Source of the DNA: Candidatus Hydrogenedentota bacterium
GTDB lineage: Bacteria > Hydrogenedentota > Hydrogenedentia > Hydrogenedentales > CAITNO01
Assembly (NCBI GenBank): GCA_012730105.1
Contig: JAAYBJ010000296.1
Coordinates: 1 to 51,444, forward strand
Direction: 5' to 3'
DNA: 51,444 nt
Each line of letters starts with the position of its first letter. The first letter of the stretch is position 1. Made by a program: the position numbers and the translations under genes. This document shows positions 158-18,478 of this stretch, piece after piece. Below the pieces are notes generated by a model. It was not told the origin of the DNA. It did no database searches and worked only from the letters and a program-made list of their open reading frames with translations.

Positions 158-220
158 TTAGAAAATTCCAATTCAGAAAACTTTGGAATCATTCCACAGT
201 AGGGGCTCTTCTATCCTTAA

Positions 221-256
221 CAAGGACATAAAGGACCAAAAGGACTTAAACGACTG
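221..256 (+). repeat. Four-unit nine-base array (GGAC core)
   Basis: Four consecutive nonamers lie in the gap between the dehydrogenase and queE: caaggacat, aaaggacca, aaaggactt, aaacgactg. The GAC core falls at the same place in each unit. A short hairpin follows directly (ataagcg, loop tta, cgcttat). The same kind of array recurs at 8762-8792, 9166-9195, 9408-9438, 18393-18478 and 40546-40617. There is no sign that it is translated. Confidence 0.6.
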
Positions 257-348
257 ATAAGCGTTACGCTTATGGTACTGGCCCGTTCCCGTATCAGGGA
301 TAGTACAAAAGCTATTATAGCATTCACAGGTGGGCAATATCAGGTGCA

Positions 349-7465: not shown

Positions 7466-8731
7466 ATGACCATGATTCGTTTTTTACTGGCGGCGGTCCT
7501 GCTGGGGCTTGCCGCGTTTCCCGCCTCCGCAGCCTCTTTCAAAGCCGCCGCAGCCAAACGCATAATCACGCCCGATCCGCTGCTGCCCGTATCGGGCGGA
7601 GTGGGCACCCCCGAGCCGGCCACCCAAAAACAGGGCGAGCTCTGGGCGCGCGCCCTTGTCTTTGAACAGGGCGGCACGCGCGTTGCCCTGGTAAGCATTG
7701 ACAACCTGGGCTGGCCCCATGTATGGGGCGATAAAACCCGCGCGCTCGTACCCGGCATCCCGCCGCAGAACATTCTGATAGCGGCCACCCATACCCACAG
7801 CGCACCGGACGCCTACGGCTTTCCCGACGAGACAGGGAAGCATCACGCCGACCTGGGGTACCTGGAATGGGCCTGCAAGCAGACGGCGGACGCGATTAAC
7901 GAAGCCGTGGCAAATTTGCAGCCAGCCGCGCTCAAAATCGCCGTGGGCGAGGCAAAGGGCAAGATTGCCTATAACTACTACGCCCCCCAGCTGTATGACC
8001 CGCGCTGCAGTGTGCTGCAGGCGGTCTCGACGGAGGGCGCCGTCCTTGCCACACTGGTCAACTATGCCATCCACCCGGAGGTACTCGGCGATGATAAAGG
8101 CATTATCAGCCCAGACCTGTGCGGCCCCCTGTATGACCGTATTGAATCCAAGGGCGGCGGCATGGCCCTCTTCATGAACGGCGCCCAAGGCGGCATGGTC
8201 ACGGCGGACAACCGCGGCCCGGACGGTGACCAGGAAATCTGGGAAGAATGCGTCCGGATAGGTAAACTGCTCGCGGATGAGGCCATGCACATTGTGGCCG
8301 ACGCGCCATTGCAGCAGGAACCAAGCCTCCTCTGCGCCGCCAGGGATATCCACCTGACGGTGTCTTCGGTATTGATGCAGGTCGTACTGCTGAATTCCCC
8401 CTTGGCGGAGGAAATGCCGGATGTAAACACCGTTCCCACCCGGGTCAACCTCGTCAATATCGGAAGCGCCCAAATTTTAACCATACCGGGAGAAGCCCTG
8501 CCCAATATCGGGTACTATCTGAAACGCCATATGAAGACGCCCCATACATTCCTGTTCGGCTTGACCAACGATGCTTACGGGTATATGCTGACCAAGTACG
8601 ATTTCAACAGTTTCAAGCGTTATGAATACATATCCGAAACAAGCCTCGGGGAAATGGCCGCCGAAGAATATATGGAACAGGCCCTGGGCTTGATTGAAGA
8701 AACGCCCGGGCCGGACGCGGAGGCGAAGTAG
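7466..8731 (+). CDS. Secreted neutral/alkaline ceramidase-like hydrolase
   Basis: The 421-residue protein begins with a signal peptide (MTMIRFLLAAVLLGLAAFPASA). It matches the N-terminal catalytic domain of neutral ceramidases: the opening KRIITPD and GVGTP strands, the zinc-binding ATHTHSAPD loop, a second conserved histidine in NYAIHPEVLG, and FMNGAQGG. Neutral ceramidases hydrolyse the amide bond of ceramide, but many bacterial relatives have unknown amide substrates. It lacks the C-terminal Ig-like domain of full-length enzymes, as is usual for short bacterial forms. The start follows CAGGAG. It lies 56 bases after the flippase-like gene in the same direction and may share its transcript. 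Confidence 0.83.
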   Translation: MTMIRFLLAAVLLGLAAFPASAASFKAAAAKRIITPDPLLPVSGGVGTPEPATQKQGELWARALVFEQGGTRVALVSIDNLGWPHVWGDKTRALVPGIPPQNILIAATHTHSAPDAYGFPDETGKHHADLGYLEWACKQTADAINEAVANLQPAALKIAVGEAKGKIAYNYYAPQLYDPRCSVLQAVSTEGAVLATLVNYAIHPEVLGDDKGIISPDLCGPLYDRIESKGGGMALFMNGAQGGMVTADNRGPDGDQEIWEECVRIGKLLADEAMHIVADAPLQQEPSLLCAARDIHLTVSSVLMQVVLLNSPLAEEMPDVNTVPTRVNLVNIGSAQILTIPGEALPNIGYYLKRHMKTPHTFLFGLTNDAYGYMLTKYDFNSFKRYEYISETSLGEMAAEEYMEQALGLIEETPGPDAEAK

Positions 8732-8761
8732 CCACAGAGACGGTGCTACACCGCTCGGATG

Positions 8762-8792
8762 TATAGGTCGTATAGGACCTATAGGACCTATA
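8762..8792 (+). repeat. Left copy of 31-bp direct repeat (nonamer array)
   Basis: The unit is tataggtcg, tataggacc, tataggacc plus a final tata. An identical 31-base copy in the same orientation lies at 9408-9438, so the four-helix-bundle gene is enclosed by direct repeats. Each tataggacctat is itself a palindrome. The left copy is open in frame with the gene and could encode Tyr-Arg-Thr repeats if an upstream ATG at 8759 were used. Confidence 0.85.
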
Positions 8793-8809
8793 ATCGCAAG
8801 GAACACGCG

Positions 8810-9412
8810 ATGAGTAAAGGTTTTATTCCGTCCCATGGCGGGTACGAAAGTCTGTTGTCCTATAAGAAGGCTAAGATCGTCTACGATGGTACCGTGTGTT
8901 TTTGCAGGCGCTTTCTGGACAAGCGCGACCGTACAGTTGACCAGATGATCCAGGCGGCCCGTTCGGGAAAACAAAATATTATTGAGGCCAGCCAGGCAAG
9001 CGGTATCTCCAAGGAAACGGAAATTAAACTTGTTGGCGTTGCCCGCGCCAGTCTTGAAGAATTACTTGAGGACTACCGAGATTTCCTGCGCACCGCCCAA
9101 CATCCTCTCTGGGACAAAAACTCCGAGGAAGCCCTTTTTGTCCGGCGGTTGGGCTCCAAACCGGATACGACCTATGAGACCTATAGGACCTATATCGAAA
9201 CCCGGCCTGCTCCTGTGGTAGCGAATATCCTCATTTGCCTGATACACCAAGCGAATTTTTTGCTTGACCAGCAACTGCGTCAATTGGAAGATAGGTTTAT
9301 TAAAGGAGGCGGTTTGCGCGAAGGCATGACAAAGGCCCGGCTTCGGGAACGGGAAAGAATGAAGATGCCCAAGACTAACCCCCGGAAAGGCAACGATGAA
9401 CAGGGTATATAG
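8810..9412 (+). CDS. Four-helix-bundle suffix-domain protein (S23/Avd-like family)
   Basis: The 200-residue protein is helical and matches the four-helix-bundle suffix-domain family, related to proteins of 23S rRNA intervening sequences and to Avd of diversity-generating retroelements. Diagnostic stretches are GGYESLLSYKKAKIVYDGT, FCRRFLDKRDRTVDQMIQAARSGKQNI.EAS, and ANILICLIHQANFLLDQQL near the C-terminus. The function of the family is unknown. The start at 8810 follows AAGGA. The gene is unusual because identical 31-bp nonamer arrays flank it, its stop codon lies inside the right copy, and a third, in-frame partial array at 9166-9195 encodes TTYETYRTYI. No reverse transcriptase or variable repeat is nearby, so this is not a retroelement. 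Confidence 0.85.
   Translation: MSKGFIPSHGGYESLLSYKKAKIVYDGTVCFCRRFLDKRDRTVDQMIQAARSGKQNIIEASQASGISKETEIKLVGVARASLEELLEDYRDFLRTAQHPLWDKNSEEALFVRRLGSKPDTTYETYRTYIETRPAPVVANILICLIHQANFLLDQQLRQLEDRFIKGGGLREGMTKARLRERERMKMPKTNPRKGNDEQGI
9166..9195 (+). repeat. Internal nonamer array within the four-helix-bundle gene
   Basis: The units tacgacc (partial), tatgagacc and tataggacc, then tatat, share the phase and core of the flanking 31-bp repeats and are read in frame as Tyr-Glu-Thr-Tyr-Arg-Thr-Tyr. They sit in what should be a loop between the central helices and the last helix of the protein. Confidence 0.75.
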
Positions 9413-9438
9413 GTCGTATAGGACCTATAGGACCTATA
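9408..9438 (+). repeat. Right copy of 31-bp direct repeat
   Basis: It is identical over 31 bases to 8762-8792 and supplies the stop codon (TAG at 9410-9412) of the four-helix-bundle gene. The spacing between the two copies is 615 bases. Confidence 0.85.
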
Positions 9439-9518
9439 CATTTCCCGGCAAACATCGACTTTCTGCGGCACGGTTGCCGTATCGCGCCTTACACGCACCC
9501 CGGTAAAAGAGTCGTTCA

Positions 9519-10193
9519 ATGGCCTATATACAAACAGAAGCAATCGTGCTGCGCAAGGTGGACTTCAGCGAGACCAGCGTGATTGTCACCTTCCTCACGC
9601 CGCAATACGGGCGCATGGCGTGCCTCGCAAAAGGCGCCCGACGCAAGGGAAGCCCCTTGAACGCATCGCTTGACACGTTCAACCGCCTTGAACTGACCTG
9701 CGCCTGGAAAGAAAGCCGGCAGGTGCAGAACCTCATCGAAGCATCCGTAATAAGCGCGTACGGCGCCATAAAGCGAAGCGTGCCGCGCAGCGCGGCGGCG
9801 GCCTTTATCCTGGACACGGTACTTCACGCTTCCTGGGAAAACCATCCCGTTCCGGAACTCTATGAGGCGACGGTTCGGGGACTTGAACTGCTTTCACTGG
9901 AAAATGCCGATCCCTGCACCGCGGCGGCACAGACCGTGTATGCCCTGCTCGAAGCCGCGGGTGTTGCCCCGGGCGACAAGGATGAAGAAAGCCTGCCTTT
10001 CACGCGCGGGAAGACGCCAGCCGAACGCGCGGAAATCCTCAACGCATTGGAACGGCTTGGCGGCACAGAAACGGATCCGGGGCACCGGGAAACGGAGGTC
10101 CTGCTGGATTTCCTGCACGATTACGCGTCGCATCACCTCGAAGCCCCGTTAAAAAGTTACGCGTTTCTAAAAAGCGTCCTTGATTTCGAATAA
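9519..10193 (+). CDS. recO: DNA repair protein RecO
   Basis: RecO loads RecA on single-stranded DNA with RecR (RecFOR pathway). The 224-residue product shows the N-terminal OB fold with the family signature TEAIVLRKVDFSETSVIVTFLT and CLAKGARRKGSPLNASLDTFNRLEL. The C-terminal half is helical. The four-cysteine zinc finger of some RecO proteins is absent. Length is near the 220-260 norm. Upstream is the right 31-bp repeat rather than an operon partner. Downstream, pheA converges with only 26 bases between the two stops, so any shared terminator must be very short. Confidence 0.88.
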   Translation: MAYIQTEAIVLRKVDFSETSVIVTFLTPQYGRMACLAKGARRKGSPLNASLDTFNRLELTCAWKESRQVQNLIEASVISAYGAIKRSVPRSAAAAFILDTVLHASWENHPVPELYEATVRGLELLSLENADPCTAAAQTVYALLEAAGVAPGDKDEESLPFTRGKTPAERAEILNALERLGGTETDPGHRETEVLLDFLHDYASHHLEAPLKSYAFLKSVLDFE

Positions 10194-18392: not shown

Positions 18393-18478
18393 AAAGGACT
18401 TAATGGACATAAATGACCAAAAGGACAGAAAAACTTTCTCCCGGTTGGTGCATCGTTTATATCCTTTAAATCCTTTCT
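18393..18478. repeat. Head-to-head pair of nonamer arrays
   Basis: Plus-strand units at 18393-18428 are aaaggactt, aatggacat, aaatgacca, aaaggacag. After about 20 bases the opposite strand carries aaaggattt, aaaggatat, aaacgatgc (about 18450-18478). The two halves are partly complementary, so the element could fold into a large imperfect hairpin. It shares phase and core with the arrays at 221, 8762 and 40546. Confidence 0.65.

Follow-up and report, generated by a model that had tools for sequence, protein, structure and literature searches.

Tandem short-word arrays as probable ends of mobile elements encoding S23/Avd-like four-helix proteins

Introduction

In a genome of Candidatus Hydrogenedentota (contig JAAYBJ010000296.1), a small gene for a predicted four-helix-bundle protein is enclosed by two copies of the same short tandem repeat; this raises the question of whether the repeat and the protein belong together and whether the unit that they form is mobile. 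A sequence-only reading of the whole stretch of DNA analysed (51,444 nucleotides, hereafter the window) had suggested a partnership between repeat and protein, or a non-classical mobile unit. In the analysis described here both suggestions are borne out, the partnership at the level of sequence; the cassette is interpreted, with a probability of roughly 0.7, as a mobile element ended by tandem arrays, comparable to the REPIN-RAYT systems and built on an S23/Avd-like four-helix protein.

Anatomy of the cassette

The identity of the two flanks, noticed in the sequence-only reading, is complete, the 31-mer TATAGGTCGTATAGGACCTATAGGACCTATA being found letter for letter, on one strand, as the left and as the right array (Table 1). 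These two copies are the source of all the repeated 25-mers within the 51-kb window and, at the strict threshold, the window contains three period-9 arrays, every one of them in the cassette (8762–9438). The internal array is identical to the 31-mer at 25 of 31 positions and its in-frame translation is YETYRTY, while the stop codon of the gene (TAG, 9410–9412) lies inside the right array; both features had been correctly recognised. The left array had been described as open in frame as well, which is true from ATG 8759; its coding as a meaningful feature, however, found no support, since the start that is conserved, ATG 8810, follows an AAGGA, and the homologues begin at the matching position with MSEGFIPPHGGY, so that the left array is, as judged from the sequence, probably untranslated.

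Because the repeat unit is nearly palindromic, the flanks of the cassette can be read either as direct repeats (31/31) or as inverted ones, with 34-bp arms that are 91% complementary (8759–8792 and 9408–9441). An Rfam search of positions 8500–9700 gave no match, and the cassette is located outside 23S rRNA. A CRISPR was considered and rejected: the units abut or have spacers of 2-3 nt, and there is no spacer-bearing array. Elsewhere in the window, a weak period-9 stretch (TTATATCCTTTAAATCC, 18449–18478) is perhaps a decayed array.

Table 1. Positions of the cassette features and of one solo array in the window.
Feature	Position	Strand	Remarks
Left nonamer array	8762–8792	+	TATAGG(T/A)C(G/C) x3.4; same as right array; probably upstream of the true start codon
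Likely ribosome-binding site AAGGA	8798–8802	+	7 nt ahead of ATG 8810; from sequence
Four-helix-bundle protein with TIGR04258 suffix	8810–9412	+	200 aa, start ATG 8810; in-frame ATG 8759 unlikely
Degenerate internal array	9165–9195	+	Codes for residues 119–129, in the linker joining helices 3 and 4
Right nonamer array	9408–9438	+	Same as left array; includes the stop codon
Inserted cassette, probable limits	8759–9441		Neighbours: ceramidase-like gene, with stop at 8731, and recO, with start at 9519
Solo period-9 array AAGGACATAAAGGACC... (AAGGACATAAAGGACCAAAAGGAC)	219–257	+	Cognate word of another suffix gene of this genome, the paralogue L037 on contig C278

The encoded protein

The protein of the window belongs to TIGR04258, the NCBIfam four helix bundle suffix domain (73.1 bits against a cut-off of 40, E=1.2e-20). 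Its matches to the S23 profiles fall below the cut-offs, both for PF05635 (S23; 20.4 vs 33.8 bits, E 5e-4) and for TIGR02436 (S23, 23S rRNA intervening-sequence protein or IVP; 23.8 vs 24 bits, E 3.9e-5), and are confined to the first helices; in terms of sequence, the protein is thus to be regarded as a distant relative of the S23 family. The AlphaFold2 model (pLDDT 86, pTM 0.76) predicts three long helices, a linker and a suffix made of a fourth long helix and a short one. A Foldseek search with the protein returned no significant match, the best S23 entry, 2rld (prob 0.77, E 1.6), being suggestive at most, and a profile comparison against 2gsc gave E=0.03. The latter entry, XCC0516 from X. 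campestris (a species that also has GGGAATC arrays), is a toroidal homopentamer whose subunits are four-helix bundles (PMC4990558, citing Lin 2006).

Searches with Pfam and NCBIfam profiles detected no catalytic domain in the protein of the window and no HUH/Y1 tyrosine transposase domain, nor was a transposase domain detected by profile searches in the four-helix proteins; there was likewise no PADLOC match to a known defence system. Several members of the family carry a C-terminal zinc ribbon of the topoisomerase-I type (Zn_ribbon_Top1), which in its home enzyme binds single-strand DNA.

Avd, the accessory protein of diversity-generating retroelements (DGRs), is a basic four-helix ring, and a plain relative of the protein (i.e., one without the suffix) matches bAvd (PF22296) at 2e-8, below the cut-off of that profile. 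It could be supposed that an Avd-like protein supplies array RNA to a reverse transcriptase (RT) in trans, as Avd does in DGRs, a supposition with which the strong RNA hairpins formed by the arrays and the four RT hits in the window's own genome would agree; nevertheless, retromobility of this kind appears very improbable, since RVT_1 could not be detected in five array-rich and nearly complete genomes (G004, G024, G025, G026, and G038), and the presence of an RT is unassociated with suffix genes (Fisher p=0.19). A DGR proper was rejected, as no RT, TR or VR accompanies these genes and several array-rich genomes have no detectable RT.

Arrays accompany suffix genes

The order-level set was drawn from 40 genomes of the window's order, its own genome among them, and had 55 usable suffix loci; arrays near the gene were found in 41 of them, having period 9 in 34 and period 10 in seven, and none had periods 5–8, while the far flanks of the same loci, of comparable total length, contained only a handful of arrays. 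The arrays lie upstream in 24 loci, within the gene in 17, downstream in 25 and on both flanks in 17; loci lacking them number 14/55 at the strict threshold and 6/55 at a looser one. For an independent set, 84,980 species genomes were scanned, with a yield of at least 573 relatives; the best 80 of these, from about 15 phyla, were analysed. In these 80 named loci period-9 arrays reach 0.352/kb up to 500 bp from the gene vs 0.010/kb beyond 1.5 kb, a 35-fold enrichment, even if over half of the loci have no array at the strict threshold; period 18 is a harmonic of 9, period 14 is slightly raised (four loci), and no comparable enrichment near the gene was seen for the remaining periods from 5 to 17. 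The homologues thus generally carry the arrays, as would be expected from the partnership suggested in the sequence-only reading.

The genome of the window has eight suffix hits above the cut-off and one fragment. Eight of these nine (the window gene, L031, L034–L038, and the fragment) have one distinct word apiece, the words being TATAGGACC, GATCGGACG, GGTGGACAG, ATGGACNNT, GGTCGGACAG (period 10), AAAGGACAT, TATTGACC, and AATGGGACG; the other (L033) is a suffix gene at a contig end, without an array. In a different genome, a suffix gene (L064, G008:C150) is bounded by terminal arrays of GATCGGACG that form perfect inverted repeats of 45 bp.

In G000, arrays occur within 200 bp of the contig end on contigs C241, C269, and C292, and suffix genes near the contig end on C326, C311, and C343. 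Given how often arrays and suffix genes are at contig ends, it is probable that short-read assemblies are interrupted by these sequences and undercount the elements.

The possibility that the suffix genes are phage cargo was discarded, as a single suffix locus was found among 2.9 million viral contigs and the plain-family query had no match in phage records.

Array period and protein architecture

Plain TIGR02436 genes, which have no suffix, obey a different rule: heptamer arrays are present in 22/27 loci and octamers in 2/27, there are no such arrays in the far flanks of these 27 loci, and in 21/24 scorable cases the array of one end is inverted relative to that of the other. The heptamer rule is also seen on plasmids of cyanobacteria and Gemmatimonadota. 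The words of suffix proteins, usually of 7 nt, are spaced by 2-3 degenerate bases, giving period 9 or 10, whereas those of plain proteins abut, giving period 7; in the suffix family, the word carries about 1.3–1.8 bits per position vs about 0.5–0.9 for the spacer. Plain-family genes with octamer arrays include L306 and L338, so that periods 7, 8, 9, and 10 are all present in the superfamily, and one locus (L068) has an 11-mer array nearby.

These observations bear on the simplest view of the arrays, i.e., that they are common microsatellites generated by slippage where intergenic DNA is unstable, with the gene as an unrelated passenger. Array length does differ between close copies, for instance by exactly two heptamers between Trichormus and Scytonema; however, enrichment is limited to periods 7/8 or 9/10, depending on the architecture of the protein, and the word follows protein clade and gene content (see below). 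Moreover, the word is retained while the spacer is free to vary, so that tandem slippage alone is insufficient, and this view, contradicted on each of these points, can hardly be maintained.

The word follows the protein

If each protein has its own word, the two should diverge together, and they do. With protein distance computed on core sequences, which exclude the linker and the tails where arrays are translated, word distance correlates with protein distance over 32 loci (Mantel rho 0.52, p=0.0005), over the 28 non-redundant ones (rho 0.51, p=0.0005), and in pairs below 70% identity (rho 0.40, p=0.0005). The correlation is weak in the narrow clade of the window protein (rho 0.16, p=0.055), because nearly all its members share GGACNNAT(A/G) and the word hardly varies; indeed, homologues of the window protein (57–76% identity) mostly have GGACNNAT(A/G)-like words irrespective of phylum. 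Genomes with several suffix genes show a separate word for each gene, wherever the array is readable. Together with the local enrichment of the arrays, this covariation argues for the partnership of repeat and protein, and the protein may well bind its word.

Solo arrays and hairpins

Arrays are not restricted to the vicinity of the genes. Genome-wide counts, based on pattern searches and on a 400-kb sample of the genome G007, indicate one gene per word alongside tens to hundreds of gene-less arrays of that word. The sites GGAC(N5)GGAC(N5)GGAC have a median of 126 per genome where a suffix gene is present vs 5 where it is absent (p=7e-5); for the reversed pattern, used as a control, the two groups are not significantly different (p=0.09). 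Arrays of TATAGGAC, GATCGGAC, and CACGGAC(N3) (the TATA, GATC, and CAC10 words) are abundant in genomes with the matching gene and mostly absent elsewhere (Mann-Whitney p=3e-4, 5e-6, and 3e-5); some genomes have arrays with no detected gene (5/31 for GATC, for example), which could be incomplete assemblies or relics. The 400 kb of G007 contain GGAC-cored arrays of exactly four types, matching its genes, plus one prominent heptamer, which is that of L309, a plain TIGR02436 locus of G007.

An equal frequency of arrays around unrelated genes had been named as evidence against the partnership. Arrays do occur beside such genes, as that objection supposes; yet they are of types whose genes the genome encodes, which fits a partnership of the REPIN kind. 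Solo arrays are often head-to-head pairs forming hairpins of about 100 bp: about 9/14 CACGGAC sites in G007 are inverted pairs, and five inverted-pair elements fold as hairpins with z from -3.2 to -7.7.

At one intergenic site of G007 (L174 8423–8573, G007:C138) three arrays are adjacent, namely the heptamer GGAGTCT, GTCGGACNN, and GATCGGACN; comparison with G012 shows turnover of array length and type at this site, with no clean empty site.

Mobility

The search for empty sites proposed in the sequence-only reading was successful. The ceramidase-like gene and recO adjoin without the cassette in four relatives (G001, G005, G010, and G015); given that the nearest relatives at this site are only about 70–77% identical, the limits of the cassette are approximate and no target-site duplication (TSD) can be read there. 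The element with the word TATTGACC is found in three congeners (G000, G002, and G003) at unrelated sites, with 83–85% identity ending at the arrays.

Target duplications were read for the heptamer elements of the plain family. The element on plasmid C of Trichormus variabilis has its empty site in Microchaete diplosiphon, with flanks 97-98% identical and a 5-bp TSD, GTAAT; the pair Nostoc ATCC 53789 pNsp_a and pNsp_c gives the 5-bp TSD TTCTA, and a third filled/empty pair has a duplication of 3–5 bp. Three further cyanobacterial pairs (N. edaphicum, C. brevissima, Aulosira) show no clean TSD, owing to divergence. The elements of Aulosira and Trichormus are 82% identical over exactly the element, in unrelated flanks, and insertions of plain elements also part nrdB from nrdA. 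On plasmids of Anabaena sp. 90 and Pseudanabaena galeata (L331, L336), heptamer elements separate cas6 from cas4 in CRISPR loci of type I-D; insertions of this sort, or mis-called arrays, might explain why a figure legend on array-associated proteins in a CRISPR survey lists a 23S rRNA IVP (PMC10910872). In Nostoc ATCC 53789 pNsp_c, a gene-less inverted pair of decayed heptamer arrays (L345), possibly a solo relic, stands where Nostoc C052 has the full element.

Insertion of whole units has to be set against a different function for the protein, i.e., that of a TRAP- or Hfq-like regulator binding its word in RNA or DNA, in which case the arrays would be operators, those of its own gene autoregulatory, and would have spread by slippage combined with locus transfer. 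Words with degenerate spacers do resemble protein sites, arrays are found beside start codons and inside the gene, and regulatory roles have been proposed for the TAACTGA heptamers (PMC4679880); such a regulator is nonetheless rather unlikely to be the full account, as it leaves unexplained the insertion of whole units with TSDs, the homology stopping at the arrays in unrelated sites and the inverted hairpin pairs. Regulation and mobility could coexist.

It may also be asked whether the four-helix protein moves anything, or only stabilises or regulates a decorated MITE displaced by a classical or IS200/RAYT-like transposase encoded elsewhere. This is rather unlikely. In its favour, plain-family elements show TSDs and have inverted arrays at their ends, the solo hairpins are REPIN-like and the four-helix protein is devoid of a catalytic domain; against it, the word code follows the four-helix protein, and no transposase was tied to the arrays in this analysis.

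Proposed mechanism

How an array-ended element could move with a protein of this type can be outlined as follows. The protein is probably a ring, as in its pentameric relative 2gsc, and each of its subunits would bind one word of a single strand, the degenerate bases acting as spacers as in TRAP; the zinc ribbon of several members suggests that the strand is ssDNA, RNA being also possible. On account of the apparently noncatalytic protein, the zinc ribbon and the toroid of 2gsc, it is proposed that the ring presents the ends to other machinery: it would gather the two ends of an element, or the arms of a hairpin, and hand them to a nuclease/recombinase or to replication machinery, supplied either by the host or by some other element, by which the staggered insertion would be made. 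Arrays alone would be sufficient substrates, which would account for the excess of gene-less copies; arrays inside the gene would be tolerated since nonamers preserve the frame and the translated repeats are confined to the tails or to the linker that joins helices 3 and 4.

Comparison with known systems

A link between these proteins and the arrays was not found in open-access papers and may exist elsewhere, e.g., in preprints or NCBIfam notes; on this basis the class of elements, which is very widespread, is apparently undescribed. It would be a class of mobile elements without any recognised transposase. Two plain-family elements share the 5-bp TSDs of IS/TIR transposons, from which they differ in having no transposase domain. 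The plain family is remotely homologous to bAvd, but its genes are accompanied by arrays rather than by an RT, TR or VR as in DGRs. The likeness to TRAP, a ring protein reading short words split by 2-3 variable bases, is an analogy only, the fold being unrelated and TRAP serving RNA regulation, not mobility.

The closest parallel in organisation is REPIN-RAYT, in which a tyrosine transposase of the Y1 type is the partner of REP doublets (Bertels and Rainey 2011, PMC3116915). Common to both are one gene per repeat class, repeats flanking the gene and dispersed gene-less inverted pairs that fold into hairpins and far outnumber the genes; however, the partner here is an S23/Avd-like four-helix protein instead of an HUH transposase, and the arm consists of tandem 7-nt words at fixed period instead of a palindromic REP.

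Dispersed tandem heptamers of unknown function have been described in Xanthomonas and Nostoc (GGGAATC; PMC4692102), in Beggiatoaceae (TAACTGA; PMC4679880), and in Geobacter (GGGACCG; PMC2700814), and MacGregor suggested that the possible mobile element was a repeat-binding protein yet to be identified. These orphan heptamers, including the cyanobacterial STRRs, resemble the present arrays in being short, dispersed and of fixed period; the literature names no protein partner for them, for which TIGR02436 is here a candidate. It is reasonably probable that most orphan 7–10-nt arrays of bacteria have S23/Avd-like four-helix proteins as their partners, which would form a class of array-ended mobile elements with a readable protein-word code, in which the suffix domain would shift the spacing from 7 to 9-10 and the sequence clade would choose the word. 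The cyanobacterial, GGGAATC, TAACTGA, and Geobacter repeats and a large protein family of "function unknown", for which a pentameric structure has been solved, would thereby become one testable system, offering a compact natural code between proteins and nucleic-acid words with dozens of paralogous pairs.

The same generalisation would include the intervening sequences (IVS) of 23S rRNA. In Coxiella, the IVS has terminal inverted repeats and tandem heptamers (GACAGAT) before the S23p ORF (PMC4990558), and thus shares with the elements described here a homologous protein family, terminal inverted repeats and tandem heptamers; it differs in residing in 23S rRNA, from which it is excised by RNase III, while the present elements are intergenic and dispersing. 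Possibly the IVS is one particular form of the array-ended class, and this gives a concrete hypothesis of how intervening sequences arose in 23S rRNA.
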